Assembly (NCBI RefSeq): GCF_001625215.2
Contig: NC_030388.2
Coordinates: forward strand, 23,486,558-23,550,557
Direction: 5' to 3'
DNA length: 64,000 nucleotides
From: Daucus carota subsp. sativus
Lineage: Eukaryota; Streptophyta; Magnoliopsida; Apiales; Apiaceae
Shown: piece after piece, positions 26,843 through 60,513 of the stretch
Position numbering within the stretch: the first letter of the stretch is position 1
Layout of the letters: each line of letters opens with the position of its first letter
Position numbers and translations under genes: made by a program
Notes under the pieces: model-generated
Databases searched by the model: none
Told to the model about the DNA's origin: nothing
The model's input: the letters and a program-made list of their open reading frames with translations, nothing else

Positions 26843-29800
26843 ATGAGTGCAGGAGTTTACAAATTCTGGAATTGTATACTATCTTTGTCCCTCATCTGCC
26901 TGACTCAAATCATCCCAACTTCTACTGCTACCGTACAGGGAAACGAAACAGATCAACTCGCATTGTTGGCCTTCAAAGAAAAAATCATACATGATCCTCA
27001 AGGAGCTTTTAGCTCATGGAATATGACTCTCAACTTCTGCAGCTGGGCAGGCATCACATGCAGCGAACAGCACAAAAGAGTCACCAGCATAAACCTTGCA
27101 TCTAAAGGTTTTGTGGGCTCTTTGCCACGTGATATAGGAAACATGAGTTTCCTGACTGAAATTGTTCTTACCAACAACAGTCTTCAAGGCACAATTCCTC
27201 AAGAAGTAGACCGTCTTTTCAGGCTTCAAGTTCTAAGCTTAGGACAAAATGCTTTGGAAGGGAAAATACCAGATACCTTGGGACGAGTTGACAGGTTAGT
27301 CATTCTCGAACTTTTTTCCAATAACCTATCTGGTATGATCCCGAATTCTGTTTTCAATCTCTCATCACTGAATGTCTTTAATTTGGCCAATAATGAACTT
27401 CAAGGAAGTATACCAACTGACTTTGGATTGACCCATCACAATCTAGAAAAGATTCAGTTATCTGATAACAGATTAAGTGGAACCATCCCCATCTCACTTT
27501 CTAATGCTTCAAAACTTCAAGTTATTGACTTGCAGTTCAACAGTTTTATCGGTCCCATACCTGCAGATTTTGGATGGTTACTGTTTCTTCAGAAATTAGT
27601 TCTGACAAATAATAACCTAGGATTTGGGGGAAAGGGTGACTTGAGTTTCCTCGAATCGTTGATCAATTGTAGCAGCTTAGAGATACTGAATGTAGGGGCC
27701 AATAATTTACATGGATCATTACCCCCTCGTACAGCTAATCTATCAACTGAGCTCACAATGATAAGCTTAGCAGATAATTGGATCTCCGGAAGCATCCCTC
27801 CCGGAATATCTAAATTTATCAACTTGATCTTCATATCTTTACAAGGGAACAACTTCACGGGCATTATTCCCCCTGAAATCACCAAACTTGGAAAGTTGCA
27901 ACGTGTTATTCTTTCTAACAACAGATTTTCGGGGAACATTCCGACCTCCATAGGGAACCTATCTATGTTGGACGAGATACGTTTAGAAAATAATGATTTG
28001 AACGGAACCATTCCTCCTAGTTTTGGAAATTGTCCAATGTTGGTCCTCTTGGATTTGTCTCAAAATAACCTCAGTGGGACTATACCCAACGAATTTTTTC
28101 ATGTTTCTCCTTTTTCAGTCAAATTAAATCTTTCCCGAAACCATTTGGTTGGATCTCTATCACCAGGTATTGGTACTTTAAAAACCTTAATCGAATTGGA
28201 TATCTCAGAAAATGAGTTTTCTGGTTTGATTTCCGCACAGCTGGGTGCCTGCATTGCCCTCAATTCACTATACATTCAAGGCAACTTCTTCCAGGGTTAC
28301 ATCCCCCAGTCAATGAGAAATTTAAGAAGTTTGCAAAATATTGATCTTTCTCGTAATAACTTATCTGGGAAAATCCCGGATTTCTTTGCAACCCTATCCT
28401 TAATATATTTGAATCTGAGTTGGAATAATCTTGAAGGTGAGGTACCTACAAAGGGAGTATTCGCCAATGCCATTGAATTCTCAATAGCAGGTAACACAGG
28501 GCTTTGTGGAGGCATACCTGGACTACAGCTACCAAGATGCAGTAGTGATAGATCAAATAAACACAAAGTGTCTTCAGATCAGCTTTTCTTCTTAATAGGT
28601 TATATACTAGGGCTTCTTACTTTCTGCTGGATAATAAAATCTTCAGATCAGTTTCTCTTCTCAAGAGTTCATATATGGAGGCTTCTTGCTTTCAGCTGGA
28701 TAAAAAGGAAAATAAAAATGTCTCGCCCAACTAGGCAGGTACTATCACCATTCATCAGAGTGCCATACCAACAACTGCATCAAGCAACTAATGGGTTCTC
28801 ACCAACCAACTTGGTCAGCAAGGATTGTTTTGGGTCAGTGTACAAAGGAGAGATTGGTTCAGAATACCAAGAAAAATCTCTGGCAATCAAAGTATTTAAC
28901 GAAGAATCATCCAAAGCTTTCAACACTGAGTGCAAAGTCCTGCTATATATGATCCAAAGAAACATTGTTACTATTAGAAGTACATGCTTGAGTACCGTAA
29001 AAAACCGTGAATTTAGAGCTATTGTTTACAATTTAAAGGAGCATGGGAGGTTAGAGAGTTGGCTGCATCCAACAAATATGACATTCAGTGATGCACACAA
29101 TGTACCTCGGACACTAAACCTTGGTACCAAAATAAACATCGCGATTGATGTGGCTACTGCACTTGATTATCTTCATTATCAACATTATCATCCCATGGTA
29201 CATTGTAATCTAAAACCAAGCAATATATGGCTAGATACAAACATGAGCGCTCATTTGTCAAATTTTGGACTGGCAAAGCTTATTACTGAAATCGACAGTA
29301 CAACGCACAGCAGTTTAGTTGCAGTAGCAGGAACCTGTGGATATATGCCTCCAGGTATAAAACCATTTACCACACTTCATACATGAAATCTTTATTATTT
29401 GTTGTCAATTCCACACTAGAACATGTAAGACTTGGACCGAACGACCCCCCAAGTTAAGATTAAATAAGTTAATGTGTTAATGCGTTTAGAATAGAACCTA
29501 ACAACTAACTTATACTGGGACCTAAAGTCCTCTTAGGCACTTGTACTACAACATGCAATTAGTTATAGCTATCTATTAATGATAATTTTCTAAATCACTA
29601 TATTACCACAAATATGGCAACAGTTTCCTCAATTCTTTTCCACACATCTATTTTCACGATAACATATCTAACTGACTCTACCATTTTCAAAAACTGTTAG
29701 AATTGGTCATACAGGTATATTTAACAAGTGTAAATTAGTTTAATGGAGCAGATAATAGAGCATTATTGCAATATGATTTGATACAGATAGAACTAAATGG

Positions 29801-32800
29801 AAATAGTACTATATATAATTAGTGAACTTGAGAATCTACTTCTCTTGTGATCTATTCAAATACTTGCTAATAGATTCTAACTCTGATCGCTGTCATATTT
29901 TATGGACAAGAGTATTATCGGGGCAGCAGGGTGTCAACTAAGGGGGATGTCTACAGCTACGGAATAATATTGCTGGAGATGCTGACGGGAAAGAAGGCCA
30001 CTGACTTAATGTTTGATGAAGGCTTCAAGCTTCAGAATTTTGTTTCCAACGCCTTGCCCTACAGCGTAAGGAATATTATTGATCCAGTTAATTTACATGA
30101 ACTAGATACAGGTAATGCAGCTGAAACAGAGATCTGCCTGAGCATGCTTTTTGACATTGGTGTGAAATGTGCCATGGAGGTGCCACAGTTTCGGCCGTGT
30201 ATTGATGATACCTTAAGCATGCTGGAAAAGGTTAGGAGCAAGTACATGGATCCAAAATTAGTCACACTGTCATACATGGATCTCCGTCAAGCAACTAATG
30301 GATTCTCCTCAACCAACTTAGTTGGAGCAGGTGCTTTTGGCTCTGTTTATAAAGGAAGATTCATCTCAGGGAAAAGTGGAATAGAAAACGGAACAGAGAC
30401 AGCTGTGGCAATCAAAGTATTTAACCTTGAGCGTAGAGGTGCAGTGAGAAGCTTCAACACCGAGTATCGAATCTTAAGAGACATTCAGCACCCAAACCTT
30501 GTAAAGATGATAACTGCATGCACAAGTGTAGATCAGGAGGGTCATGATTTTCGAGCTATTCTTTACGAGTTCATGGATTGTGGGAGTTTAGATATGTCTC
30601 TGTGTCCAACAAACAAAAAATTTTGTGATGGACCCATCAAACCTCATATACTTAGCCTTCAGACCAGAATAAATATAGCAACTGATGTGGCCTCTGCACT
30701 CAATTATCTCCATCAACAAATATGTTGCATAGTTCATTGTGATTTAAAACCAGGCAACATCTTACTAGACAAAAATCGAGTTGCATGTATTGCAGATTTT
30801 GGATTGGCTACTTCTCTTCCTGAATCCCCAAACTTCAACCAAGGCAGTAGCTCAACTGGAATTCGAGGAACCCCCGGATATATAGCTCCAGGTAAAGTTA
30901 CTATATAACTGCATTGATATATGAAATCATCTGGGGCTTAATGTAAGAATTGACTCATTCTAGTTTAGCAAACAATGCTCTAAGCAGGCGTACTAAATTA
31001 TCTTTTAATAAGAAGAAAATAGAATAACAGAGAGCCAGAAAAAAAAAATGAGCCACAAAAGAAAGAAAACTGTATTAACTATTACGCTAGACGTACATGA
31101 TTAAAGCTTCTTTATATCATCCCTCTTGTGAACACCTCTTAGAAAATGGCTAAGAGTATCTATTGCACCTTATATGAAGGGAATGCTATATTAATTCTTG
31201 GATGAATTCATAACTGCATTAGTTATAAATATCTTCATCATCACGACCACTCCTTTCTTCAGTTCCAGGATTCTCTCTTCAGCTAATTTGTCCTTAAATT
31301 AACAATTCACATCTCATTCATATACTCTTCAACTGATGCTGTAAATCTAGATGCCATCAAGTAAAATGATTTTATTTAATAATATCTCAACAATCAGTAA
31401 GTAGTCCGCACTTAACTTTTGAGAATGTTTCTGCTTATCTCTAGCTATCTAAATTAAAGACCAAGCTGAAAAACCTTGCTGTGGCATCCTCATAAAGCTT
31501 AAGGATGTATAGAAATGCAGTAGCCAAACCAGTGGAGGGGCCAAGGAGGCTGAAGCTGAGGCTGAAGCTGAGGCTGACCTTCGGATTTGGTGTTACAATT
31601 TTCTTTTAGCCCCTACTGACCTTGAGAAGTTCTTTAACAAATTGTTAGAGAATATAAACTTATGAACATTAAAATTAAAATATTTTATACATGGGTCCTT
31701 CACAAAATTGGTTCTGCCACTGTGGAGAAGCAAGGTCCGGAGTTGCTCATTGCAGTTGTAAGTTACTAGCTAGAAACACGATTTCGAGTGGAAAAATGAA
31801 AAAGAGATCAGGAATTTAATGTATTCCACAACTCAGAATGGCGCTGGCCTCGTTAATTTTTATTTTTTAAAGTTGCAATTATCTGCCTACATTTGGCAGC
31901 AAAAGTGCTTTCGCAATCTTCTGTTCAAACTAGCCTAATACAAACACTCATTAATTCACCAAGAGTGCTCGTGTTGGACACTCAACACTAAGGCATGAGC
32001 ACGGACCCTTAGACACTATAGCTTGGGCAAAAAATTTCAAAAAATTGATGAGTTTAAGACTTGGCCATGAATCTAGGATGGACAGTAGTTCCATCTGAAT
32101 CAAGGTAACAGAAGAATAAACACAAGTACCCTCCTCATACTATTTTTGTAGTGATACATTTCCTAGAAGTTGAAAATCATTACGATCAGCTTTTGCCTAC
32201 TTATTGATCGTATGTACGTGGATATATGAAACTAGAGCAACAAATTGATAGAACTTGAGTAATTAATTATATATAAAACTATTGTTATCTTTAATTATTA
32301 ATGAGAGATGAATCTATGAATTGATTTCTTGGATAAATTTTATAATTAAATTGTGACTACACCGATTCTCTGTAAAGATAGGTAAATATCATCCTCCTGT
32401 ACCCTTCTCCCTGGCCTATCCTACATCACCGACTCTCCTGAACCCTAAGGTAGTGTTAAGAGAAAACCTTTGCTACTGTCAATGATTCTCATTTCTCACT
32501 CATCTTGAAGAACTAGACATATACATACACTAGTTAAGGAATGTCCATCTAAATAGCTACATATTATTGGGGATATGTTCTGATAGTTTTCTTTGAGATA
32601 GGTTGCTAATTGATAGGAATTCCTTTATTCAACCAGGTAATCCTGGCTAATTGGTATTATGGTTGCTTTCCTGATTTGAAAATCTGAGAAGAATTGTTCT
32701 TTGTTCAGTACAAGTTTTGTATTAAGAGTATTGTTCTAATTAAATTTAATAAAAGAAAAAGCTCATAGTAAAGCTTTTCATACATACATAGCACATGCAA

Positions 32801-33354
32801 TCCCAAATTCATGCTACGAAATTTATATTATCCTAGACTTGAGTAAAATAATCATAAATTTAAATCAGATGGTTGCATACACATATTTGAGAATCATTTG
32901 CATGACTGAAGGAGAGATTAATAGATTGTACTCTATCTTGGGCCTCTTGGCTAAAATTTGAATATTTATTTTCTTTGTAATAGAGTATGGTATAGGATGC
33001 CAGATGACAACCAAGGGAGACACATACAGCTTTGGGATCCTATTACTGGAGATGCTGACAGGTAAAAAGCCTACTCATCATATGTTCCGGGATGGTCTTA
33101 ACCTTCACAGCTTTGTCTCGCTGGCATTGCCTAACGATGTGATCAACATTAGTGACCCACTCATGAAGCTAACGACATCTGCAAGTATAGGAGATGACAA
33201 ACGAGTAGAGTATTGCCTGACTAAATTGTACATAATTGGTTTGGCGTGCTCCAAGACATCACCAAAGGATCGACCAGACATGCGTAAATTATTAAGGGAG
33301 CTGGAATCCATTAAGAACAGCTTTGGGATCCTATTACGGAGATACGAACTTTAG
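26843..33354 (+). CDS. Gene C: LRR receptor with tandem pseudokinase and kinase, 1,287 aa
   Basis: Exons 26843-29354, 29911-30891 and 32984-33354 join in frame (3,864 nt). Parts in order: signal peptide (1-29), LRRNT (NETDQLALLAF, about 33-75), about 19 LRRs to residue 555, transmembrane helix about 579-597, ATNGFS juxtamembrane motif, kinase 1 (about 650-950), kinase 2 (about 970-1285). Kinase 1 has a broken glycine loop (KDCFGSVYKG), keeps Lys683, but has HCN at 787-789 and NFG at 807-809, so it is probably inactive. Kinase 2 has GAGAFGSVYKG, Lys1006, HCD at 1113-1115 and DFG at 1133-1135, a non-RD active type. Exon 2 runs from the kinase 1 C-lobe into kinase 2 without an intron, because the two introns and the linker exon of genes D-F are deleted. 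A 69-bp duplication enlarges the transmembrane region. The ectodomain suggests peptide or microbial ligand sensing at the plasma membrane, as in LRR-XII receptors (EFR, FLS2, Xa21). Ligand unknown. Confidence 0.88.
28571..28708 (+). repeat. 69-bp in-frame tandem duplication in the transmembrane region of gene C
   Basis: Two units both begin TCTTCAGATCAG (28571 and 28640) and end CTGGATAA(T/A)AA. The first encodes the helix DQLFFLIGYILGLLTFCW. The second encodes the more polar DQFLFSRVHIWRLLAFSW. Genes B, D, E and F have a single unit. Confidence 0.85.
30892..32983 (+). other. Last intron of gene C
   Basis: A 2.1-kb phase-1 intron at the E-Y codon of kinase 2. It shares stretches with the matching introns of B (for example the CTACCCTTCTCCCT area near 32400). 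It holds a short 12-bp repeat, GAGGCTGAAGCT, at about 31545-31577. No ORF is seen. Confidence 0.7.
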
Positions 33355-33359
33355 TCCCT

Positions 33360-33880
33360 CATTGATGATTACTGTTCTATGCTTTCATAAGAAAACTAAT
33401 CGTCTTTTTTTCACCAAGATATCTTGTTTCTATTGTATTTTATTGCTAATGTATATGTTTGCGGAGATATTTCTGTCATGATGATAAATAATGATGATAT
33501 AATAATGTATCAGCAAGCAACTCCGGGTCTAAAATCTGATGTTATTACTAAACAGTTAAGTACAATTAGAGGCTTGGTATATGTTGATCCTAGAAAAGAT
33601 CCGAATTCATATAATCTCCATAAAAATCGCAACAAATATATAGAGTAGAAAGCCATTTTACCTGCAATGTTAAGCTTTGGAGCAACTCCTTTACTTTTGG
33701 AGAACAATTTATCAACTTCCGATACATCGTCTGCAAGTAGTTAATTAAAATAAGTTCACGTAAATTTTACAACAAATTAAACTCTTTTGAGCATTTTTAC
33801 CAAACAGGTAGAGTGTTCATACCTTCGACAGCGCAAGTTTCCTTCCATATTTTGTACCCCTGAGACTCTGGTCTAAAAGT
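33360..33880. repeat. Conserved block downstream of gene C
   Basis: Diverged copy of 22380-23010. On the minus strand a segment at about 33745-33660 reads between TACTTGCAG and GTAAAATGG without a stop in one frame, unlike the copies after B and D. It may be a decayed antisense exon. Confidence 0.5.
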
Positions 33881-34529: not shown

Positions 34530-34660
34530 TTCTTTTATCAAAACAGTTTTGGAAAATTTTGGCTTTCTAATTAATGCGTTAATGCTTCTCTTCTCTACCT
34601 TCGTTGACTCTCGGTCCACCACTGAACACATTGTTAGTGTTGTACACGAGTACATCTGTT
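34530..34660 (+). promoter_or_regulatory. Relic of an E/F-type promoter, left half
   Basis: The bases match the region upstream of genes E and F, including CATTGTTAGTGTTGTACA and a TTGACTCTCGGTCCACCACT block that contains a W-box core. It is cut by the hAT element starting at 34661. The rest of such a promoter appears at about 37850-37947, before an N-terminal gene fragment. Confidence 0.65.
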
Positions 34661-35412: not shown

Positions 35413-35420
35413 CATCTGTT

Positions 35421-36110: not shown

Positions 36111-36116
36111 ATCATA

Positions 36117-36403: not shown

Positions 36404-36490
<87 letters not shown>

Positions 36491-38646: not shown

Positions 38647-38652
<6 letters not shown>

Positions 38653-38687: not shown

Positions 38688-38691
<4 letters not shown>

Positions 38692-38700
38692 CCTCAGAAG

Positions 38701-41700
38701 ATGAGCGCGGGAGTTTACAAATTCTGGAATTGTACACTATATCTGTTTCTCATCTGCCATGCTCAAATCATCCCAACTTCTACTGCTACGGTAAAGGGAA
38801 ACGAAACCGATCACCTAGCATTGTTGGCCTTCAAAGCAACAATTATCCATGATCCTCAAGGAGCTTTTAGCTCATGGAATATGTCTCTTAACTTCTGCAG
38901 CTGGGCAGGCATAACATGCAGCAAACAGCACAAAAGAGTCACTAGCATAAACCTTGCATCAAAAGGTTTTGTGGGTTCTTTGCCGAGTGATATAGGAAAC
39001 ATGAGTTTCCTGACTGAAATTGTTCTCACCAACAACAGTCTTCAAGGCACGATCCCTCAAGAAGTAGACCATCTTTTCAGGCTTAAAGTTCTAAGCTTAG
39101 GACGAAATGCTTTGGAAGGAAATATACCAGATACCTTGGGACAAGTTAATAGGTTAGTCATTCTCGAACTTTTTTCCAATAACCTATCTGGTATGATCCC
39201 CAATTCTGTTTTCAATCTCTCATCACTGAATGTCTTCAATTTGGCCAATAATCAACTTCAAGGAAGTATACCATCAGACTTTGGTCTGACCCATCACAAT
39301 ATACAGAAGATTCAGCTATCTGATAACAGATTAAGTGGAAACATCCCTGTATCACTTTCTAATGCTTCAAAACTTCAAGTTATTCACTTGCAGTTCAACA
39401 ATTTTAGTGGCCCCATATCAGTAGATTTTGGAAGGTTACTGTATCTTCAAAATTTAAGTCTGGAATATAATAATTTCGGACTTGGGGAACAGGGTGACTT
39501 GAAATTTATTGACTCGTTAGTAAATTGCAGGAGCTTAAAGATATTGAAACTAGGGGCCAATAACTTACAAGGATCATTGCCCCGTTCTATTGCAAATCTA
39601 TCAATTAAGCTAACGATGATAAGCTTAGCAGATAACTGGATATCTGGAAGCATCCCTCCTGACATATCCAAATTTATCAATTTGATCTTTTTATCTTTAG
39701 AGCATAACAATTTCACGGGCATTATTCCCCCTGAAATCACCCAACTTGGAAAGTTGCAACGCGTTCTTCTTTCTAACAACAGACTTACAGGGAACATTCC
39801 GGCCTCCATAGGAAACCTATCTATGTTGGATGAAGTTCATTTAGAAAATAATGAATTGAACGGAACCATTCCTCCTAGTTTTGGAAATTGTCCAATGTTG
39901 GTCCTCTTGGATTTGTCTCAAAATAACCTCAGTGGGACTATACCCAACGAATTTTTTCATGTTTCTCCTTTTTCTATCAAATTAAATCTTTCTCAAAACC
40001 ATTTGGTTGGATCACTACCGGCAGGTATTGGTGGTTTGGACACCATAGTTGAATTGGATATCTCTGAAAATGAATTTTCTGGTTTCTTTCCCACAGAGCT
40101 TGGTAGATGCATTACCCTTGATACACTATACATGCAAGGCAACTTCTTTCGGGGTCACATCTCCCACTCAATGCGAAATTTAAGAGGTATGCAAAATCTT
40201 GATCTTTCTCGTAATAACTTATCCGGGGAAATCCCAGATTTTTTTGAGCTGCCCTTGAAATATCTAAATCTAAGTTGGAATCATCTTGAGGGAGAAGTGC
40301 ATACAAAAGGAGTATTCGCAAATGCAAGTGAATTTTCGATAGTAGGTAACAAAGAGCTCTGTGGAGGCATACCTGAACTGCGGCTACCAAGATGCAGTAG
40401 TGACAGTGATAGATCACATAAACACAAAAGGTCCTGGGTACAAGATTTATTCATGATAGGTTTTATACTAGTTCTTCTCATTGTCGGTTACCATTTGTTG
40501 CCTAGAGGGAAAAAAACTGAACCACCTGCTGTATCTATTAGACCTATATCAGTATTACCCATCAGATTGTCATATAAGATTCTCCACCAAGCAACTGACG
40601 GGTTCTCACGAGCCAACTTGGTCAGCGAGGGTGGTTTTGGGTCAGTGTACAAAGGAGAACTTGGTCCAGAGTACAATGGAAAAGCTGTTGCAATTAAAGT
40701 ATTCAATCAAGAAGCAACCAACAGTTTCAGCACAGAGTGTGAAGCCCAACAACATATTCGCCACAGAAACATTGTTAAGATCAGAAGTACAAGTTCAAGC
40801 ACTGCAAAGAAAGGCAAAATATTTAGAGCTATTGTTTACGACTTCATGGAGAATGGGAGCTTAGATAGGTGGCAGCATTTAACATGTAGAACATCTCCTG
40901 ATGAGCTTAGCATGCCTCAGATTCTTAACCTAAAGAACAGAATTAACATAGCGATTGATGTGGCTAGTGCACTTGATTACCTTCATAATCAATTAGATTA
41001 TCCCCTAATACATTGTAACCTAAGTCCAAGCAATATTTTCCTAGACACAGAAATGAGCGCATATGTATCAAACTTTGGACTCGCAAAGTTTCTCATAGAT
41101 CGAAGAATTTTTAATGGATTCGCAGGACCCTCCGAATATGCACCTCCAGGTAAAAAGACAAATTAAACTTCATACATACAATTTTTTTCAAATCTTAGAT
41201 ATGTCAATGCCGTCCAATAATAAACTTAAAAAATGACCTGAAGTTTTCTGCATTTTTATCAAGTAGTTAAACATGTAATTTGTTGTTTCACCCCATTGTT
41301 TATGGGTCGTTGAGGTATGTGGTAGTGGTACGAGATTGGACACATAAAACGCTAGTTTTTATGAATTGGGCACGATGACTCTTGAATTGATTCGATTCCC
41401 GAATCAATATGAGGATTCACTTTAGTGAATTTTAATAAACAATATATAGACCAGGTGTAGTTTTATATAACTAATATAGGGTCATGCTTAAGAGAGAACC
41501 ATTAGAGAGAGAACCCATACAACCCTTACCTTATTTCTAGTATTAGTTAGGGTTATGCAGCAGAACTTCACATGTAAAAAATGTCAATATCTATGTATTA
41601 TGTTTTAAAATTATTTTTGAACACATACAACGATGAAAAAACATGAAAAAAATATGTATTTAGATTTAGATCCTAAAAATCTATTTAAAATTTAGGGTTA

Positions 41701-44700
41701 TGCAGCAGAACCTTAGTGGTTCTATGGTTCTATTTTAAGGACGGGTTCTCTCTTGAGCGCGACCCTCATATTATATTCATATACATATCTATGAATATAT
41801 ACATACATATATATATATATGTATGTATAATATATATGTATAATGTATATATATATATTCATATATAGAGTTAAAATGTCTTACAAGTTCAGCAAATTTT
41901 ACGTAATATCCTACATATCCAATTTAGCCAACATCGTTGGAGACGCTCTAACAAGTCCCAATAATTTATTGTTGCTGATACAAGAGTGCTGCAACCTGAA
42001 TCTAGACAGCTAAAAGTAAATAGAAAAATTGTGTACAGATTTATTGATTTCTCGAGAAACTAATTTTCTTCTGATTTATTCATATGCTTGGTGGACCGTG
42101 CACAAGAGTACTACCAGGGAAGCATGGTGTCCACTAAGGGGGATGTCTACAGCTACGGAATAATATTACTGGAGATGCTGACCGGGAAGAAGATTACTGG
42201 CCCTAGTTTTCATGGATCGTTTAAGCTTCAGAACTTTGTTTCCAGTGTCTTGTCTAGCGGGGTAAATGATGTTATTGACCCATTCAATCTACAAGAACTT
42301 AGTACATATGATGCGGCAAAGGCAAATGATTGTCTAGTTATGCTTTTAGGCATTGGTGTGCGATGTGCCCAGGAGTCACCAAAGTTCAGGCCGGATATTA
42401 AAGATACCTTAAGAGTTCTGGAAACAATTAGGAGCTTTTTCGAGGTTACTAAATTCTTATTTATTTTCTACGAATATTAGTTTTATACCATTAGACCGCA
42501 ATGATCAGTGCTCACACAAATACAAATCACTAGCATATTTGAGGCTGTTGAACAACATAAGCTCATCTGTTAAAGCATATGCACCGATTGAAAATAATAT
42601 TGATCCGTTAAAACAAATTAATGAATTGACGTAGTTCATCAATGCAACAGTTCTTTATTAGTCCATCAATAAAACTGAAGGTCATCAATCAGATACTCCA
42701 TCAAATATTGATGGAGTTGGTGATAGATCGGGGGCCTTCAATTTGATTAATGGATCAGTAAATGCCTGCTGCATAAGTACACGTCCATCAATTTGTTTAT
42801 TGACCAATTGATGACTTAAAGACGGTGTATTTGATGGTAATAGTTATCAAATTGATGAACTGAAGCTCCAAATGAGTGCATATGCTCTTACAGACGGATT
42901 GATATACTGTTCTATTAATAGTTTTCTTGTATCAAAAAAAAGAAGATAAGATTAAATGTTTTGCTTCAGGCCAATACAGGTTGTACTCAGACGTATGCTA
43001 TAGGAAGTTTGCAAGCTGCAGTCTCGATGGCTCTAAGAAACAGGAGATCTCTACTTTGGAACAGGTACACTTTTTCATAGTTTAATGCATCTAGATTATC
43101 ACTCACACCTTCAATCTTTTATTGAATTCCCAAGTGTTGTAGGTTAGAAGTTTCAGAAATGCCCTCTCCAAATCTAGGGGAAACAAATTCAGGTAGAACC
43201 GACTGGAATGTAGCCACAGCAAGGCAGTTGTTGGATCCTTTTCCTCAGATGGCTCCAAATTTAGCCACAGTGTCATACATGGATCTCCATAAAGCAACAA
43301 ATGGGTTTTCCTCAGCCAACTTAGTCGGTGCAGGTGGTTTTGGCTCTGTTTACAAAGGAACATTTAATCAAGGATATGTTCATCTTCTCTTAAGGGATAG
43401 TGAGATAGTAGATGAGATTGGAATAGCTGTTGCAATCAAAGTATTTAACCTTCAACGTAGAGGTGCAGTGAGAAGTTTCAACACTGAGTGTCAAATTTTA
43501 AACAACATTGACCACAAATATCTTGTAAAGCTTATAGCCACATGCACAAGTGTGGATCAAGACGGTCACGATTTTCGAGCTATTCTTTTTGAGTTCATGG
43601 ATCATGGGAGTTTAGAGATGTGGCTGCACCCAAAATATAAAACTAACATTGATAGTCCCGTAAAACCTCGAATACTAACCCTTTTTGCCAGAATAAGCAT
43701 AGCTACTGACGTAGCCCTTGCACTTGATTATCTTCATTATCAATGCAAGAATGGCATAATTCACTGTGATCTAAAGCCAGGCAACATTTTGATAGACAAA
43801 AATATGTCTGCACATATTGCAGATTTTGGATTGGCAATAACTCTTCCTAAATACCAAAATATGAACCATTGCAGCAGTTCAACTGGTATACGAGGAACGA
43901 CCGGATATATAGCTCCAGGTAAAGTTACTATAACTTGAAATTGAATTAAATTTTTATGAATTCATTGGGGGCCAAATGTAAGACTTGATTTGTTCTAGTT
44001 TAGCATAGAATGAACATATCACATATACCAATGTTTTATTTTACCAATTATATACATTACCCAGACTCGGCTAAAAAGTGTCAAACATGGATATGTGTCC
44101 AAGTGTCGGACTCGGCAATATTCTGAAAATTTTACATGTTTATGGCCTAAAAGAAGGGTCGGAGTGTCAATGCCCATGTCCGAGTGTCCGACATGGGTAT
44201 TTCAGACAAAATGAAGAGTCGGGGTAACATAGATTATACTAATTATTTTATAAAGAGAAGATAGAATAAGAGAGAGCCAAACAGAATTTATTAAGCTATG
44301 AAGGGCCAGCACCCCCCCCTCCCCCGCCCAAAAAAAAAAAAACAAAAGCCCGAATCAATAAGATAAAGTACAGCTTACATCTCAACTTTTAGGTGTTATG
44401 CTCTCATTATTTTGTTTACATCATCAATACTTATGTAGTTACGTGTTATCTTCTATTAATCTGATGATGTTAATCTTCCAATAATTTCTTTTACTTTCTT
44501 TTTTCTTAATTATAACATCCATTAGACCATTAGCTCTCTCATATCATCATTTTATCTTTTCTTTAATATTATTCGCACAAATAAATGTCCACTTAGTTTA
44601 CAAATTATGGTATGTAATATTTAAGATTTGTGTATTATTATTTTCAATTTTTTATTTTTAATTTATTATGATTATTATAACTGTGTACTGAACTTCACAC

Positions 44701-46932: not shown

Positions 46933-49900
46933 ATGAGAGCAGCAGGAGCTAACAGATACTGGACTCATGTAATATCTTTGTTTCTCATCTCCACATCTCA
47001 AGCTGCTGCATCAAGTGGAAACGAAACGGATCAACTAGCATTGTTAGCCTTCAAAGCAAAGATTTCCCATGATCCCCTAGGAGCGTTTAGCTCCTGGAAT
47101 ATGTCTCTCCATTTCTGCCTCTGGGAAGGCATTACATGCAGCCAACGCCACCAAAGAGTCATCATCCTAGACCTCTCATCTAAAGGTCTGGTAGGTTCCT
47201 TGTCTCCTCATATAGGAAACATGAGTTTTCTGACTAAACTTGTTCTCTACAACAACAATCTTCGAGGCTTGATTCCTCCAGAAGTAGACCGTCTTTCCAG
47301 GCTACAAGTCCTAAGCTTAGGCCGTAATGCTTTGGAAGGAAACATACCAGATACCTTGGGACGACTTAATAGGTTAGTCATTCTTGAACTTTTTTCCAGT
47401 AAGCTATCTGGTATGATCACTACTTTTTTTAATCTCTCGTCACTGAAAGTCTATAATTTGGCCAATAATCAATTTCAAGGAAGTATACCATCAGAATTCG
47501 GATTGGCCTATCCCAATCTACAAAAAATTCAGCTGTCTGATAACAATTTAAGTGGAACCATTCCTGTATCACTATCTAATGCCTCCACACTTCAAGTTAT
47601 TGACTTGCAGTTCAACCGTTTTAGCGGTCCCACACTTGTAGATTTTGGAAGGCTACCATATCTTCAGAAATTAGGCCTAGCAAATAATAATCTAGGAGTA
47701 GGGGAACATGGTGACTTGAGTTTTTTCGACTCATTGGTCAACTGCAGCAGCTTAAAGATACTGGAAGTAGGGGCCAATAATTTACAAGGATCATTGCCCT
47801 GTTCTTTTGTCAATCTATCAACTGAGCTAACAATGATAAGCTTAGCAGATAATCAGATTTTTGGAAGCATCCCTTCAGAGATATGTAAATTTACCAATTT
47901 GATCTTTTTGTCATTAGGAGGTAACAAGTTCACAGGCATGATCCCCCCCGGAATTGTTAAGCTCAGGAAGCTTCAGCGAATTGTTCTTTCTAACAACAGA
48001 CTTACAGGGAGCATTCCTGCCTCCATAGGGAACCTGTCTATGTTGGATGAAGTTCATTTAGAAAATAATGAATTGAACGGAACCATTCCTTCGAGTTTTG
48101 GAAATTGTCCTATGTTGGTCCTCTTGGATTTGTCTCAAAATAACCTCAGTGGGACTATACCCAACCAATTTTTTCATGTTTCTCCTTTTTCTGTCAAATT
48201 GAATCTTTCTCAAAACCATTTGGTTGGATCACTACCAGCAGGTATTGGTGCTTTGAAAACCTTGGTAAAGTTGGATGTTTCAGAAAATGAGCTGTCTGGC
48301 TTGATACCAACAGAGCTTTATGATTGCAGTGCCCTTGAATCACTCTACATGCGGGGGAATTTTATTCAGGGTTTCAAGTCCCAACCAGTGAAAAAGTTAA
48401 GAGCTCTGCAAAATATTGATCTTTCTCGTAATAACTTATCTGGAAAAATCCCAGATTTCTTTGAAACCCTACACTTGAAATATTTGAATCTTAGCTGGAA
48501 TAACCTTGAGGGAGACGTACCTAAGAAAGGATTATTCGCAAATGCAAGTGCATATTCAATAGTAGGTAACAGGCTCTGTGGTGGGATACCTGAACTACAG
48601 CTACCAAGATGCAGTAGTTACAGTCCAGCTTATCAAATAATAGTGGTTCTACTTGGGCTGGTTTTTATACTACTTATTTTCACTATTTTGTTACATATTT
48701 ATGCAAATATGGTGCTGCGTTCAGTATTAAATAGACCCATTTCAGTATCACCCATCACATTGTCATACAAGCAACTCCATCAAGCCACTAATGGTTTCTC
48801 AAAAACCAACTTAGTCAGCAAGGGTGCTTCCGGTTTAGTGTACAAAGGAAAAATTGGTCCACAATACAATAAAAGAGCTGTTGCAATTAAAGTTTTCAAT
48901 GAAGAAGCAACCAACTGTTTCATCACTGAGATTGAAGCCCTGCAGAATATTCACCACAGAAACATTGTTAAGATCATGAGTATATGCTCAACTATTGTAG
49001 AGAACCGCGGTTTTAAAGCTATTGTTTACAATGTCACTGAGCATAGGAGCTTGGAGTGGTGGCTGCATTCAAAAAGTATGACATCTCATGACAAGCTCCA
49101 GATACTGAATCTTAGTACCAGAATAAATATAGCAATTGATGTGGCCAATGCACTTGACTATCTTCATAATTCTTCGGATAATCCCTTGATTCATTGTAAT
49201 CTAACATCAAGCAATATTTGGCTAGACACAGACATGTGTGCACATGTATCAAATTTTGGACTCGCAAAGTATCTTACTGATATAGGCAGTGATAGTCAAG
49301 CTCAAATCAGATCTGGAGCAGTTCGAACCCCAGGATATAAGCCTCCAGGTAAAAAAACTACATAATACACATCTTACTAGAAAATTTGTATTTTGTAGTT
49401 CTTTCTTGGTTGAAACATGTAAACTAGCCACCTGCAGGTTGGAATATAACGCGATAATGTTTAATAAGGCATCACTGTAATGCTTTTGCCGTCTAGTAAT
49501 TAAGCTATACAATGACCTGACTTGAAGCTATCTACAATTCTAATAAGTAGTAGAACATACAACTTGTTACTTCCTTTTCTAAGATAATTCGTTATAGGGG
49601 CAGGTATCGTAGTGTCCAACTGTACATAACTAGTGAACTCTGGAGAAAGTACATTTCTCATAATTTATTCAAATACTTGCTAAAAAAAAATTCTAACTAT
49701 CATTACTATGTTATTTTATGGGCAAGAGTACTGCCTGAGAAGCTCAATGTCAACCAAGGGGGATGTGTACAGCTACGGACTAATTTTGCTGGAGATGCTG
49801 ACAGGCAAGAAGACTACTGACCCTATGTTTAACGAAGGTTATAAGCTGCAGAACTTTGTCTCCAGTGCCTTGTCTGATGGTGTAAAGGATATTATTGACC

Positions 49901-52900
49901 CAGTCAATCTACATGAACTTAGTAGAGATGCTGCAGCACATGCAGAAGACTCTCTGAGTATGCTTTTCAACATTGGTGTGAAATGTACCCTGGAGATGCC
50001 ACAGTTTCGACCAGACATAAGGGATACCTTAAGCATGCTGAAAACAGTTCGGATCAACTTTAAGGTTTCTAAACAATGTTCTTTTTTTTTTCCAAAATAT
50101 CTTAAGACTTTTTTAGCTGTTAAACTATTACACAACACCAAATCTTCTAAAGCTAGGTGTGTACAGCTCCAATCATATTTTTTTCCTTTTCTTAAAGATT
50201 GAGATTATGTGCTGTGCTTCAGGCTAATCATACTACTGAGGCATATGCTCGGACAAGCTCCCTAGCTTCAGTCATTATGGCTCAAAGAAACATGAAATCT
50301 CTACCATTGTATGGGTACATTTTCCCTAGTCTCCACAAATAAAGATTTATGAATCATACCTTCATTTCTCTTCTTAATGGTGTAGGATAACAAAAATGGC
50401 TCCAAACTCAAGATCAATGTCGACGTTATCATCAGTCGTGGTGTCATATGTGGATCTCCACAAAGCAACTAATGGATTTTCCCTTACTAATCTAGTCGGT
50501 GCAGGTGGCTATGGCTCTGTTTATAAAGGAAGATTTCTTTTAGGGAATAGTGGATTAGAAGACGGAACAGGAACAGCTGTTGCAATCAAAGTATTCAACC
50601 TTCAGCGTAGAGGTGCAGTGAAAAGTTTCAACACTGAATATGGAACCTTAAAAAACATTCACCACCCGAATCTTGTAAAGACTATAACTACTTGCACAAG
50701 TGTAGATAAGGAGGGTGGTGCTTTTCGAGCAATTCTTTATGAGTTCATGGATCATGGAAGTTTAGAAATGTGGTTGCATCCAAGATATAAAAATTACTAC
50801 AATGGTCCCCTCCAACCTCATATACTGAGCCTTCACGCTAGAATAGATATAGCAGTTGGTGTCGCCAGTGCACTGAGTTATCTTCATCATCAATGTGAGC
50901 ATTCCATAATTCACTGTGATCTAAAACCTGGCAACATTTTGCTAGACAAAAACATGGTTGCTCACATTGCTGATTTTGGACTGGCAATATCCCTTCCAAA
51001 ATCCCCGGAATTGAACCAATTGAGCAGCTCAGCTGGAATGCGAGGAACCCTGGGATATATACCTCCAGGTAATTTTACTATTTAACTTGACACTGAATAT
51101 ATACGATTTCTTCTTAGACTGAATGTAAAACTTGACAGGTTCTATTTTAGCATCAAATGTGTTAACCAGGCCTACTAATTCTTTCTTAAGATTATATGAA
51201 GATAAAATCAGCCAGTCAAAGAAGAATAGAGACTATATCAATTTAACTCGTAATAGAACCGATTATTTCCATCCTCTTGTAAGTTGTAATCTAACTGAAA
51301 TCAGGAGATGATAGATATTGTGTTGTTTAATTTAATCACCAAATTCTAGGCATCCTCATTTCCCCTTAAATTCAATCCATATTCAACCCTCACTAAATTG
51401 CTCAGATTTTAATTATATATTGATCAATTGCTGTAAAATGTAAATTAGTGGAGGTAAATCTCCAGTTAGTCAAGTAGATACTCTTTGCTGGATAACACCA
51501 TATTTGTTTTCCTGATGCAAGTTGCTGAGAGGACCGAATGCTTCGTATTAAATTTTATTTTTTAAAATTCTTTCATGGAATAGAAACTCTCAGTAAAGCT
51601 TTCCCTACAACCTGGTGCATGTATTTCCCTAAACTACTAATTTGATAATAGTCTAGACTTGAATAAACTCATAGCGAAGAACAAGTTTTATTCATAATTG
51701 CTAAAGAAGTGGAGATCACTATTTTCCGGAAGGAAAGTGCCAGGTACCCAAAAAGTGTTCTCCATTTTTTTCCCTAATCCAAGTGGCATTGTATGATTAG
51801 TTCCTCTCACATCTATCTATTATCTATATAATAGAACAACCCTGAGTAATTTAATTCAAAGTGACGAATCTACCCTTTACTCATTATGCATATATTTATA
51901 TATTTGAAGGTCATTATTGACTTTTATTACTAACGTATTTATTAGACATTAATGTCTAATCATTAATATACATTAAATTACTTCATAATTAAAATTTCAA
52001 TACATGTATGTGTAATATATTTATATTCATGATTTAATAATATATAAATAAATATCCAATGTTATAAAAAATGAAAATTAGAAAATCGGCGATTAATCAG
52101 AATGATGAATACATTATTCAGAATTAATTTTATTTTATATATGTAAAAATAGTAAATATATATAATAATTTTTAAAATTTTAAATTTTCGCCACAAATTT
52201 TGTAATTTTCAACCAATCATTCCATTTTTTTCCCAATTAGTCATCGATTTTAACCGAATTTTGCCAAATTCTATTATATATCTAATACAACAATAATGAG
52301 CACTTAGCAGAAAAAAAATAATGAGTAATTTTAGGTGGGTGATAATTTAATTATATAATAAAATTTTAAACAGTGTATATTTTATGTATTTATAATTTAA
52401 TAAAATATCATTATAGTGAGTTTATGTTTACATATAAACATCAATATAATATGACTTAAAATACAAATAAATTTAAATTATTTTTATAATATAAATAATC
52501 TTAATTTAAAAAGGATGAACAAAAAGATATAACATATATTAAAAAAATAATTTAAAGCAACTCGTGCTTTGCACGGGTTAAGAAGCTAGTTAGTAATAAT
52601 GGGACCTCTTGTATGCATATCAACCGCCCAATTAAAGATAGCCACATGTCTGCCACGTCATTTGGGAAAAGATTTTGCGAACGAATTTTGGGCTACGTAG
52701 CATCACCCTTTTAGGATAGAGGTTCATTTTTATTTTTTGGTAATGTGTACCCCGAATTTCAAATTTACGGCACCTTTAAATTTTATATTTTTCTTGGTTA
52801 TTAGAGTATGGCCTAGGATGCAAGATGACAACCAAGGGAGACACTTACAGCTTTGGGATTCTATTGCTGGAGATGCTGACAAGAATGAAGCCTACTCATC

Positions 52901-53139
52901 GTATGTTTCGTAAAGGTCTTAACCTTCACAACTTTGTTTGGATGGCCTTTCCTAACAACATTGTTGACATTACTGACCCACTTATGAAGATAAGATCATC
53001 TGCAAATGAAGGGGAATGCCTAACTAGACTGTTCAATATTGGTTTAGCATGCTCCAAGATCTCATCAAAAGATCGACCAGACATGCATGCTGTATTACTT
53101 GAGCTGAAATCCATTAGGAACAGCTTCCAGTTGAATTAG
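46933..53139 (+). CDS. Gene E: LRR receptor with tandem pseudokinase and kinase, 1,287 aa
   Basis: Exons 46933-49348, 49727-50064, 50223-50314, 50386-51068 and 52805-53139 join in frame (3,864 nt). I start at 46933 because MRAAGANRYWTHVISLF is a signal peptide shared with gene F. The frame is open 58 codons further up, but that part matches promoter DNA of F. LRRNT and about 19 LRRs follow to residue 545, transmembrane helix about 567-590, kinase 1 to 918, linker, kinase 2 from about 960. Kinase 1 has KGASGLVYKG (loop altered), Lys653, HCNLTSSN (754-756) and NFG (774-776). Kinase 2 has GAGGYGSVYKG, Lys1017, HCD 1125-1127, DFG 1145-1147 and IPPE instead of APE. Intron 4 holds a Helitron. Confidence 0.88.
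51823..52589 (+). mobile_element. Helitron-like element in gene E intron 4
   Basis: It starts TCTATATAATAGAACAACCC after A. It ends with hairpin CTCGTGC TTT GCACGGG, then TTAAGAAGCTAG followed by T. The 3' end closely matches the elements at 5.3 and 63.7 kb. 767 bp, AT-rich, non-coding. Confidence 0.75.
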
Positions 53140-54332: not shown

Positions 54333-57300
54333 ATGAGAGCAGCTGGAGTTAACAGATACTGGACTCATGTAATATCTTTGTTCCTCATCTCCACATCTGC
54401 TGCTGCTGCTGCATCTGGTGGAAATGAAACGGATCAACTAGCATTGTTGGCCTTCAAAGCAAAGATTTCCGATGATCCTCTAGGAGTGTTTAGCTCCTGG
54501 AATATGTCTCTCCATTTCTGCCTCTGGGAAGGTATTACATGCAACAAACAGCACCAAAGAGTCGTCAGCCTAAACCTCTCCTCGACAGGTCTGGTAGGTT
54601 CTTTGTGTCCTGATATAGGAAACATGAGTTTTCTGCGTGAAATCGATCTTTACAACAACAGTCTTCAAGGCCCAATTCCTCAAGAAGTAGACCGTCTTTT
54701 CAGGCTAAAAGTTCTAAGCTTAGGCCGTAATGATTTGGAAGGAAAGATACCAGGCACCATAGGACGTCTGAAAAGTTTATTCTTTGTCGATATCTCTTCA
54801 AATGAACTCTCTGGTATGATCCCTACTTCAATTTTCAATATCTCGTCATTGTCTTCCTTCAATTTGGCCAGTAATCAGCTTGAAGGAAGTATACCATCAG
54901 ACATCGGATTGACTCTTCCAAATCTGAAACTGATTCGGTTATCATATAACAAATTAACTGGAAGCATTCCTGCATCGCTCTCTAATGTTTCCAAACTTCA
55001 AGCTATTGAATTCCAGTCCAACAACTTAAGAGGCCCTGTATCTGTGGATTTTGGAAGATTGCCGTATCTTCAATTACTACGCCTGTCGTATAATAATCTA
55101 GGATCTGGAGAAGAGGGTAACTTGAGTTTTCTTGATCCACTCACCAATTGCAGCAGATTACTAATATTGGAACTAGAAAGCAATAATTTTCAAAGGTCAT
55201 TGCCCAGTTCAATTGCTAATCTATCAACTACGCTACAAATCATAAGCTTAGCATATAATCAGATTTCTGGAAGCATCCCTTCCGGGATAGGTAATTGTAT
55301 CAGCTTGATTCTTTTATCTTTACAAGGCAACAAGCTCACGGGCATTATTCCCTCTGAAATTGCTAGGCTCGGGAAATTGCAACGAGTTATTCTTTCTAAC
55401 AACATGCTTTCAGGGAGCATTCCTGCATCCATTGGGAACTTATCTTTGCTGGACGAGATTCATTTAGAAGATAATCAATTACAGGGAACAATTCCGGCTG
55501 GTTTTGGAAACTGTCCAATGTTGGTTTTCTTGGATTTGTCTCGAAATAACCTCAGTGGAACTATACCTCGTAACTTATTTTCTATTTCCCCATTTTCTGT
55601 GAAACTAAATCTTTCTCGAAATCATTTAGTTGGATCACTACCAGCAGCTATTGGAGCTTTGGGAACTGTAGTTGAATTGGATGTCTCAGAAAATGAGTTT
55701 TCTGGTTTTATTCCAGTAGAGCTTGGTCGATGCATCTCCCTCAGTTCACTATACATGCAAGGGAACTTTATTCAAGGTTACATCCCTGAATCATTGACAA
55801 ATTTACGAGGTCTGCAATATATTGATTTTTCTCGTAACAAATTATCTGAGAATATCCCCGATTTCTTTGGAGACCTAATCTACGTGGAATATTTGAATCT
55901 GAGCTGCAATAATCTCGCAGGAAAGGTGCCAATGATAGGGGTATTTTCAAATGCAAGTGCATTTTCAATAGTAGGTAACAAAAAGCTATGTGGAGGGATA
56001 CCAGAACTGCGGCTCAAAAAATGCAGTAAAAAATATATTGGAACATATAACCAAATTATGGCTTGGGTACAGGTTTTCATCTTGATAGGCTCTATACAAG
56101 ATCTTCTTATCATCAGTTGCGTATTTATGTCATGGCATAGAAGGAAAAGAAGGGAACAACTGAGATACTCAGCATCAAATGTAATGATATCCCCCAACAA
56201 AATGTCATATGAGCTACTCCGTCAAGCAACCAAGGGATTTTCACGAACCAACTTAGTCAGCGAGAGTGGTTTTGGGTTAGTGTATAAAGGAAAACTTGAT
56301 CTTAAATACATTGGGATACCTGAGGGGGAGAAAGCAGCTATAGCAGTAAAGATATTTAACACTTTGAATGAAGAAGCGGCCAACTGTTTCATCACTGAGT
56401 GTGAAACCCTGAAAAATATTCGCCACAGAAATATTGTTAGAATCATAAGTACATGTGAGAACCACAAATTTAAAGCTATTGTTTACGACTTCATGAAGAA
56501 TGGGAGTTTAGAAGGGTGGCTGCATTCAACAAGTAAAGCATCTCATGATAAGCTCAACATGCCTCAAATACTGAACCTTGATACCAAAATAAACATAGCG
56601 ATTGATGTGGCTAGTGCACTTGATTATCTACATACTCAATTGGCCAATCCCTTAATACATTGTAATCTGAAGCCAAGCAATATTTTGCTAGATAGAAACA
56701 TGACTGCACATGTATCAAATTTTGGACTAGCGAAGTTTAATACTGAGTTCAGCCTTACAAGCCAAAGCATTTTAACTGGATTTGAAGGAAACAGTGGATA
56801 TGTACCTCCAGGTAATAAACTACACACACACACACCCTACTTCATACATAAAATTTTGTATTGTTTGGTATTTTCTTGGCCAAAGCATGTAAGATCTAGA
56901 CAGAGCCCATCCCTAAGCTAGGATAGAACATGTAACTTGTAGACCTGTCTAACAATTAACATGTATAATAGCCTAAAATTCTTTGCACTTATATTCTGTA
57001 GTAAAAACATGAAATTTACTTCCTTTTTTTTTTTTGCTAAATATGAAATTTACTTCCTAGTTATTCAATATAGTATGTAAACCTCTTCACTGCCACAGAT
57101 ATCACAGTCACGTCCTGTGATACCTACAATCTCTTGTATCATTATTTAAGTTATGATAATTAATGTAACTGCTTGTATTATTTCCAAAGTGGTGTAATTT
57201 GTCTATAAATGTGTTTTTAGAAAGTGCCGGTAATTCTTAGGGACAGATACAAGAGCACCGCAATCTAGTTGAAAAAGCAATTTAGGCAACGAAGGTGCAT

Positions 57301-58073
57301 TGCGTACAGAATTAGTGATCTCTAGAGAAAGTACTTCTCGTATTATACAATCATATACTTGCAGATAAATTCTAACTTGGTATAATCCTCTAATATGTTG
57401 TGCAAGAGTATGGTCTGGGAAGCATGGTGTCAACTAAGGGGGATGTCTACAGCTATGGAATAATTTTACTGGAGATGCTGACAGGAAAAAAGATAACTGA
57501 CCCTATGTTTCAAAATGGTTTTAAGCTTCAGAACTTTGTTTCCAATGCCTTGTCTGATGGTATAAAGGGAATTGTCAACCCAGTCAATCTATTTGAACTT
57601 ACAAGAGAGAATGCAGCAGAGGCGGAGGATTGTCTAAGTATACTTTTCAACATTGGTCTGAAATGTGCGCTGGACTTGCCACAGTTTCGACCAGACATCA
57701 GTGATATCTTAAGCATGTTGGAAACAGTTAGGATCATCTTCAAGGTTACTCAACTATGATCTTAATCTTTCAAATAATCTTGGATTTCTTAGCATTAGAT
57801 CAGATTGATTAGTTACCCGTATGTAAATCACTGGCATACAACTTTGAGGTTGCTTAACTGCATATCACCTCATCTTTCATAAACTCTGTCCACTATTCTA
57901 TTCATAGTCTTCCTTCTCTAGAAATCAAGATTAAATCCTTTGCTTCAGGCCAATACAGGTAGTCCGGAGGCCTATGCTAACAAAACTTCCCAAGCTGCAG
58001 TTTTGATGGCTCAAAGAAACATGAAATCTCTATTATTGTACGGGTACAATTCTCCATAATTCCCAATTGCCCA

Positions 58074-58136
<63 letters not shown>

Positions 58137-60513
58137 TCATGCCTTGAACTTTTACAAATGGTGTAGGGACAAAAAGATGCCTCCAGATTCAAGATCAATG
58201 TCGATATCACCATCGGTCACACTGTCATTCATGGATATCCATAAAGCAACTAATGGACTGTCATCAACCAACTTACTAGGCGCAGGTGGTTTTGGCTCTG
58301 TTTATAAAGCAACATTTCATCAAGAGAATGTTCGTCTTCTCTTAAGGAATAGTGGGATAGAAGATAGGATTGGAACAGCTGTTGCAATTAAAGTATTTAA
58401 CCTTCAGCGTAGAGGTGCAGCAAGAAGTTTCAAGACCGAGTATAAAATCTTAAGAAACATTAGCCACATGAATCTTGTAAAGGTTATAACTGCATGTACA
58501 AGTAAAGATCTGGAGGGTAACGATTTTCAAGCTATTCTTTATGAGTTCATGGATAATGGGAGTTTAGAAATGTGGCTGCATCCAACAAATAAAACATACC
58601 ATGATGGAGCCATCAGACCTCGAATACTCAGCCTACATGCCAGAATAAATTTAGTGATTGGGATAGCCTGTGCACTCAGTTATCTTCATTATCAATGTAA
58701 GAATTGCATAATTCATTGTGACCTAAAACCAAGCAACATTTTGTTAGACAAAAACATGGTCGCGCGTATTGCAGATTTTGGGCTGGCAATTTCTCTTCCT
58801 GAATCCCCAACTCTGAACCAAGGTAGCCAGTCCAGTGGATTACGAGGAACCACTGGATATATAGCTCCAGGTATATTTTCCATAAAACTTGGCATTTAAT
58901 TAGAGAAACATGAATTCTTTAAAGGCTTAATGTAAGACTTGGTTCATTTTAGTTTTGCACAGAATGATCTCACCGTGATTCTTTCTTAATAATATTAAAT
59001 TGGAATAAGAGAGAACCAGAAAGCAGAAGAATTAATTGTCCATGACTACAACCTTTCAGTCCTTCCCTCTCCTAGACGCCTTTAGAGAAAGTGCCAGAGT
59101 ACCCTAGGTAGTATATTAATCTTTAATTAACTCCAGAACTGCCATAATTAAAGTTTAAATTTATTGAACACCATGATTGCTCCTTCCTCACTGCCTCCAT
59201 CACTACACCTGTTTCATCCTCAGCTAAATTGCTCAAAGTTGAGACCTCCCGGTATGCTTAACTCTCGTACCATTTTTAATGACCAACCTTGTGTTGTTTA
59301 ATTGCCAAAAATTAAGTACTGACGTACACATTTTATTTATCTCCAGAAGTCTCTAGTTGGTGTACGTAGTGTTCATTTTGCTTTACTTGGACTAGGTAAA
59401 AAATGAAAAAGCTATTAATCACAACAATAGGGTTCCTCGGATTTGTCAGGTCTCATATGACTAACTTATTGCAGTCTATTTCTAATCAAACCAGAGGAAA
59501 TAACAGACGAACTCGTTTGGATTTGTTTAATTAATATGATATGTGTTCAATAGTGGGGGCACTTGAGAGTTTATTACTTAAGCTCAAGTTCCAGTATTGT
59601 CCATGTAAGTCTGCCCCTGCATACATCCACCCCTCCTTTTCCCCAATATATACCCTGATGTATTGAAATTGGTTTTAAATTAATGTAGGAATCGTACCTG
59701 GCTGATTAATTTTGATGACAGCTTAGATGTAAATATACTGGTAAATATAATATAAACTGGTTTATACCATGTTTGGTAATTGGATTTCATTTGAAATTAT
59801 GGATTTGACCCAATTACATGTTTGGATAGACAAAAGAATTTGAATGTGTGAAAACCAAGACAGTCAAATACTCGTATGAACTTGATGATTTTAAATGACA
59901 ACTCAAATCATGTCATTTGGAATCTAGCATTTAAAATGAATTACATGTTCACAAACACAATCTAATAAAAATTTAATGGCTGTATCATATGCATATTTGT
60001 TAAGGTAGTGGGACTATTAAGAATCAGGATTGAGGGGTGAGAGTCATTCCATGACTCAGGGGTGCTCTTACCTCTTAAGGCTTCCATTTTTCTTTGAGAA
60101 ATTTTACAGTAAATTGCAATTTATGGCTAAAACTTTCATTGTATATTTTCTCGGTTTTAGAGTATGGACTAGGATGCAAAATGACAACCAAGGGCGACAC
60201 ATACAGTTTTGGGATTTTGTTATTGGAGATTTTGACAAGGAGGAAGCCTACTCATCGTATGTTTCGTGGAGGTCTTAACCTTCACAACTTTGTTTGGATG
60301 GCTATGCCTGACAATGTGATGGACATTATTGACCCGCTTATGATGGTAACGGCATCTGCAAATGAAGGGAATGAGAAACAAGTAGAGGAATGCCTGACTA
60401 GATTGTTCAGTATTGGTTTAGCATGCTCTAAGCCATCGCCGAAGGATCGGCCAAGCATGCTTTCCATACTACATGAGCTGGAGTCTATTAGGAACAGCTT
60501 CTACATTAATTAG
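54333..60513 (+). CDS. Gene F: LRR receptor with tandem pseudokinase and kinase, 1,322 aa
   Basis: Exons 54333-56811, 57407-57744, 57949-58043, 58167-58870 and 60161-60513 join in frame (3,969 nt). Signal peptide MRAAGVNRYWTHVISLFLIS, LRRNT with SSWNMSLHFCLWEGITC, about 19 LRRs, transmembrane helix about 579-600 (VFILIGSIQDLLIISCVF), kinase 1 to residue 939, linker, kinase 2 from about 990. Kinase 1: ESGFGLVYKG, Lys673, HCNLKPSN (776-778), NFG (796-798). A short insert (IPEGEKAA) precedes the lysine. Kinase 2: GAGGFGSVYKA, Lys1046, HCD 1154-1156, DFG 1174-1176, GYIAPE. The LRRs are the most diverged of the cluster, so ligand specificity may differ. Intron 3 carries an (AT)n run. Confidence 0.9.
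58074..58132. repeat. (AT)n microsatellite in gene F intron 3
   Basis: About 28 TA units within the 123-bp intron 58044-58166, so nearly half of the intron is repeat and its length probably varies between plants. Confidence 0.95.

Follow-up and report, generated by a model that had tools for sequence, protein, structure and literature searches.

A stretch of 64,000 nucleotides of the carrot genome (Daucus carota subsp. sativus, C8:23486558-23550557), referred to here as the window, harboured a tandem array of leucine-rich repeat (LRR) receptors in which a putative pseudokinase is followed by a second, predicted active kinase. The genome comprised 441,086,747 bases in 11 contigs, of which C10 and C11 (250,368 and 127,500 bases) appear from their size to be organellar. 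Two primers for carrot CENH3 (PMC10684906) matched this genome exactly, the forward primer at a single site and the reverse primer 216 bp beyond it, in agreement with its origin from Daucus carota. Seven two-kinase copies were identified by genome search, B to F in the window and G and H beyond it. Copies C, D, E and F were intact. They were located on the plus strand and spanned positions 26843..60513 of the window. Copies B and G were broken, as was a further copy, A, of which an LRR fragment only was present, and copy H was incomplete. The architecture is not a product of chance, as seven copies show two kinase domains in which motifs and frame are conserved. At the level of gene models, each intact copy most likely represents one gene for one polypeptide, inherited as a unit. 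Relative to the gene models listed in the literature, a conserved multicopy clade of LRR receptors with a fixed pseudokinase before a kinase may be new.

Stop-to-stop open reading frames (ORFs) were determined and exon models were rebuilt from the DNA with GT-AG introns. The spliced proteins comprised 1287 aa in C (three exons), 1333 aa in D, 1287 aa in E and 1322 aa in F (five exons each), with a single terminal stop in every copy and GT-AG borders in 14/14 introns. An earlier note on this DNA had claimed four uninterrupted frames of 1,287-1,333 codons, each with a signal peptide, LRRs, one membrane helix and two kinase domains; the rebuilt models agreed with it, including the ends at 26843 and 60513. 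The order in all four proteins was LRR ectodomain, membrane helix, kinase 1, linker and kinase 2. In copy C, exon 1 (26843..29354) encoded the signal peptide, the LRRs, the membrane helix and the putative pseudokinase, kinase 1, up to its PPE motif. Exon 2 (29911..30891) joined the kinase 1 C-lobe in one open frame to kinase 2 as far as the APE motif, and exon 3 (32984..33354) held the kinase 2 C-lobe and the stop. In the other copies, signal peptide, LRRs, membrane helix and kinase 1 were again located on exon 1 (D, 38701..41149; E, 46933..49348; F, 54333..56811), followed by the kinase 1 C-lobe on exon 2 (42107..42444, 49727..50064 and 57407..57744, respectively). A linker exon came next, with 95 nt in D (42970..43064, phase 0 to 2), 92 nt in E (50223..50314) and 95 nt in F (57949..58043). 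The first exon of kinase 2 was found at 43143..43918 in D, with active-type motifs, at 50386..51068 in E and at 58167..58870 in F, and the kinase 2 C-lobe with the stop at 45243..45586, 52805..53139 and 60161..60513. In copy F, a long TA repeat at approximately 58075-58135 extended the short intron that precedes kinase 2.

Domain searches supported this plan. With Pfam, LRRNT_2, LRRs and a protein kinase were detected in exon 1 of 4/4 copies. For the second kinase, the Pfam run covered copies C, D and F, and PK_Tyr_Ser-Thr was above the cut-off in 4/4 exons submitted (the first exons of C, D and F and the last exon of D). The signal peptide was assigned by eye from the N-terminal hydrophobic stretch. 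One membrane helix after the LRRs, starting at residue 569-583, was detected per copy in a hydropathy scan; an additional weak segment within kinase 2 of copy F was compatible with a kinase helix. AlphaFold modelling of D exon 1, for which C, E and F served as alignment, predicted an LRR solenoid with confidence and placed a helix at 569-597. The kinase part of this model was poor, with a predicted local distance difference test (pLDDT) score mostly below 50, and was not used. Profile matches in the PDB included the FLS2 kinase.

The two kinases differed in their catalytic residues, in line with the pseudokinase-then-kinase order that had been proposed from the sequence. In kinase 1, the Asp of the HxD motif and the Asp of the DFG motif were both replaced by Asn in 7/7 copies. 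The first glycine of the loop was lost in 7/7 and the catalytic Lys in 3/7, and the beta3 Lys, the alpha-C Glu, the VIa Tyr and the catalytic-loop Asn were kept in 7/7. The VIa Tyr was located 13 residues before the Asn at the catalytic site. By its residues, kinase 1 thus fits a pseudokinase, with catalytic positions lost and fold positions kept. Kinase 2 was standard at all eight scored positions in 7/7 copies and had a Cys before the Asp (HCD), which makes it non-RD. Kinase 1 is predicted to be non-catalytic and kinase 2 catalytic. Thirteen single-kinase relatives from carrot, drawn from 12 loci among the best matches, served for comparison. We take them to belong to subfamily XII of the LRR receptor-like kinases (LRR-RLKs). 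All eight positions were standard in each of them, with HCD in 10 and HSD in 3.

Both kinase types occurred exclusively in pairs among the scored genome matches. The search with kinase 1 of copy D (150 of 1230 candidates scored) yielded seven kinase-1-type matches with 58-80% identity besides the self-match, and the other matches listed showed 54% identity at most. With kinase 2 of copy B (150 of 1442 candidates scored, listed up to an E value of 1e-30), seven kinase-2-type matches were obtained at 68-74% identity besides the self-match; the other 52 of the 59 listed matches, which included the seven kinase 1 domains, did not exceed 57%. Each kinase 1 adjoined a kinase 2 and vice versa, giving seven pairs and no unpaired domain. 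A maximum-likelihood tree was calculated from 31 rows, with kinase 1 of G omitted and five other carrot receptor-like kinases (RLKs) as outgroup. Support was 99/98 for the kinase 1 clade (6 rows), 100/100 for the kinase 2 clade (7 rows) and 98/97 for the single-kinase relatives (13 rows). Copy C grouped with B in both kinase clades (87/71 in kinase 2) and D grouped with H in both, joined by G in kinase 2. The three groups formed a three-way fork in the tree, and both kinases grouped with the 13 relatives apart from the five other RLKs. In both kinases and in the single-kinase relatives, the domain was split over two exons at the APE/PPE motif. Judged from the reading frames, the paired occurrence and the distinct clades of the two kinases, the array probably expanded after one fusion event had joined two kinase units of LRR-XII type. 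LRR-XII receptors normally have one kinase, as the earlier note pointed out. In 13/13 single-kinase relatives, the protein stopped within 3-15 residues of the last aligned kinase position, and the 0.4-5.4 kb read downstream (in one case the stretch up to the next LRR gene) contained no second kinase exon. Two of the single-kinase loci had other kinase matches upstream.

All three parts of the protein are under purifying selection in copies C-F. Nei-Gojobori dN/dS values, calculated as whole-domain averages, were 0.30-0.40 for the ectodomain, 0.38-0.48 for kinase 1 and 0.29-0.46 for kinase 2. A value of 1 was reached in 0/2000 bootstraps in each of the 18 comparisons (six pairs per part). In comparisons with the broken copy B, dN/dS of kinase 1 ranged from 0.43 to 0.67. 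Since the Asn changes were present in all seven copies, parsimony indicates that kinase 1 was retained after the loss of its catalytic residues.

Whether each copy encodes one product or two depends mainly on the region between the kinases. A linker exon was present there in 6/7 two-kinase copies and absent from C. Its length was 59 nt in B, 92 nt in E and 95 nt in D, F, G and H, in every case 2 modulo 3, and its frame was open; gaps between pairs of copies summed to 0, 3, 33 or 36. It was bordered by AG acceptors and, except in H, by GT donors. In copy C, a 344-codon ORF at 29874-30908 contained the kinase 1 C-lobe and kinase 2 with neither a stop nor an intron between them. Precise intron loss was considered as the origin of this fused exon and dropped; an in-frame genomic deletion fits better, since the linker exon and a few flanking residues on each side are missing at the join. 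Several observations weigh against a single polypeptide. In B, D and F, reading from kinase 1 exon 2 into an unspliced first linker intron leads to a stop 4-11 codons beyond the donor, and in E to a later one, which would allow short products that end after kinase 1. In the same four copies, the first kinase 2 exon has an ATG close to its start. At the DNA level, conservation of the linker exon barely exceeded that of adjacent intron (mean identity 70% vs 64%, the latter both in the preceding 100 bp and in the following intron, for which the five pairs involving G were omitted because of its intron of more than 300 bp). In copy H, the linker exon was followed by a GC donor, and the approximately 30 kb read downstream did not reveal a last exon. 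The tree carried a long-branch warning on one outgroup row. Two genes or products per copy, namely an LRR-RLK that terminates behind kinase 1, within the first linker intron or ahead of it, and kinase 2 as a cytosolic protein of its own, would account for the early stops and the ATG codons and would match the ends of the 13 single-kinase relatives just past the kinase. However, kinase 1 C-lobe and kinase 2 share one unbroken exon in copy C, the linker exon is in frame in six copies, neither kinase type was unpaired among the scored genome matches, and the first ATG in the kinase 2 exon of H falls inside the conserved SYMDLHKATNG at the start of the domain. Two products are therefore considered very unlikely. 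One transcript carrying both kinases is suggested by the uninterrupted frames, by the paired occurrence and by each kinase type being monophyletic. The LRR-XII-type membrane receptor of the earlier note most likely stands as one gene and one polypeptide, given the spliced frames, the in-frame linker exon, the fused exon in C, the paired inheritance and the purifying selection on kinase 1. A decaying array in which kinase 1 or kinase 2 is tolerated junk would agree with the broken copies A, B and G and the incomplete H, but it is extremely unlikely: C-F are open throughout, their three parts are under purifying selection, and simulated random change of the observed amount, with mutation bias ignored, left the frame free of stops in just 0-2/2000 runs for kinase 1 and 0-6/2000 for kinase 2.

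With regard to function, EFR provides the nearest precedent. In EFR, an LRR-XII receptor, the kinase-dead form D849N still activates BAK1 and signals, and the VIa Tyr 836, 13 residues before D849, matters (PMC11259431). In kinase 1, this site likewise shows Asp replaced by Asn, with a Tyr 13 residues upstream; given the functional D849N form, it would likely act on a SERK co-receptor without catalysis. Upon ligand binding, the LRRs would associate with a co-receptor of the SERK/BAK1 type. Kinase 1, predicted to be inefficient at phosphate transfer, would then serve as the conformational partner that activates the co-receptor, like kinase-dead EFR, and kinase 2 would provide the phosphotransfer or substrate docking lost from kinase 1. 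For the joint claim of a one-gene receptor with a pseudokinase-kinase split and this co-receptor mechanism, we see an even chance. That the copies represent an old, selected receptor class, with catalysis and co-receptor activation split over two domains of one receptor, is a tentative proposal in which we place less than even confidence. At the same tentative level, the membrane-proximal kinase would have been fixed with the change that makes EFR kinase-dead, plus DFG Asp to Asn, and a second working kinase would have been appended. Catalytic independence was reported only for XIIa kinases of the genus Arabidopsis (PMC11259431), so the behaviour of EFR may not extend to carrot. The resemblance to the JH2-JH1 order of JAK, pointed out earlier, stood for domain order and was confined to it. 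Janus kinases also have a pseudokinase before a kinase, but they are cytosolic tyrosine kinases bound to cytokine receptors. A JAK-like control, with kinase 1 as a JH2-like brake and later helper acting in cis on kinase 2 and freed by ligand-driven dimerisation, would be in keeping with this order, with the fold residues kept in kinase 1 and with the purifying selection acting on it. The order is the sole common feature, however, and the interkinase linker, measured by anchor positions, ranged between approximately 10 residues in C and 78 in D, a spread that speaks against a single precise geometry between the domains; we regard such control as rather unlikely. An integrated-decoy idea was raised for cytosolic tandem kinases. 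Applied to the carrot copies, one kinase would bait pathogen effectors and the other would report the modification, perhaps via a nucleotide-binding LRR receptor (NLR). The clustered, unequal array with broken members would resemble disease-resistance loci, and resistance in cereals is conferred by tandem kinases (PMC6170490, PMC11006675, PMC8956640). Against a decoy, neither kinase gave a diversifying signal as a whole-domain average, and purifying selection acts on the ectodomain, which suggests that a receptor role has been kept. A decoy function is thus judged distinctly unlikely.

Known groups of plant kinases come close to the carrot copies. Like LRR-RLK subfamily XII (EFR, FLS2, XA21), copies C-F have the receptor plan, with an LRRNT_2 LRR ectodomain, one helix and a non-RD kinase of XII-type sequence. 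In contrast to that subfamily, they exceed one kinase per protein, and the membrane-proximal kinase is without both catalytic Asp residues. With plant tandem kinases (Rpg1, WTK1/Yr15, Sr62, WTK7-TM/Pm36), of which two receptor-kinase-derived kinases per chain, often including one pseudokinase, are characteristic, they share two kinases in one chain according to the gene models. Unlike in tandem kinases, an LRR ectodomain and a helix precede the kinases. Members of the tandem kinase protein (TKP) family are described as lacking extracellular and transmembrane domains, with 92 surveyed (PMC6170490), WTK7-TM has a C-terminal helix (PMC11006675), and kinase pairs of sunflower and lettuce are without an ectodomain (PMC8866362). 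The earlier view that a membrane LRR receptor ending in pseudokinase plus kinase is not a described class held in part. No functional account of such a receptor or clade was found in the literature searched, which lacked most subscription papers and did not include a recent survey of tandem kinases across plants, and no two-kinase LRR receptor appeared in the accessible text of PMC4177888 or PMC7017783. Two-kinase LRR-RLKs have, however, already been counted, uncharacterised, in soybean (3/467; PMC4776374), Medicago (2/329; PMC7555646) and foxtail millet (2/285; PMC12111010), and dual-kinase RLKs were reported in wheat (PMC11968617). Two kinase domains are predicted in these models as in carrot. 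Compared by description only, they differ in being isolated gene models, whereas the carrot pseudokinase is fixed in a conserved clade of several copies. It is described as an open question whether signalling by XII-type receptors relies on catalysis or on allosteric BAK1 activation (PMC11259431). If the architecture is as proposed, a dead membrane-proximal kinase and a competent second kinase would allow catalytic and allosteric roles to be tested in one protein. It would also tie surface receptors to the tandem kinases of cereal disease resistance and may represent a new wiring of plant immune receptors.

The broken copies retained parts of the same plan. Copy A, on the plus strand, was a truncated LRR part at 2618..3781 with 92% identity to residues 1-388 of D; with kinase queries, chance-level matches only and no convincing kinase were obtained near it. 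Copy B had been described as having the same plan in broken form, which applied. On the plus strand, its 5' part comprised LRRs as far as a Copia-like interruption (13906..14847), and the remaining LRRs, the membrane helix and kinase 1 (HRN, NFG) were located at 18058..19429. The kinase 1 C-lobe (19927..20264), the linker exon (20467..20525) and the first kinase 2 exon (20598..21277) followed. The kinase 2 C-lobe, assigned by homology to 22019..22359, contained a premature stop at 22237-22239. The LRRs of B were split (14848-18057) by minus-strand ORFs at 15407-15901 and 15902-18085, which were Copia-like by eye, and no pair of long terminal repeats was found around the insertion within 14500-18500. 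Copy G started approximately 13 kb past the window end. Both kinases were present, and the copy was frameshifted, with changes of frame both among the LRRs and within kinase 1 exon 2. Copy H was located on the minus strand at approximately C8:27.370-27.375 Mb, 3.8 Mb away. Its exon 1 was open over 842 codons, and kinase 1, linker and the first kinase 2 exon were present. Contig C8 was assumed to be carrot chromosome 8. The nematode-resistance loci Mj-1 and Mj-2 map to that chromosome (PMC6544626). A lone LRR fragment was located at 24107-24292, between copies B and C. Positions 1-2503 and 10926-13428 of the window, 10.9 kb apart and each with an LRR fragment, were 100% identical over 2503 bp, so that they were either duplicated very recently or are an artefact of the assembly.

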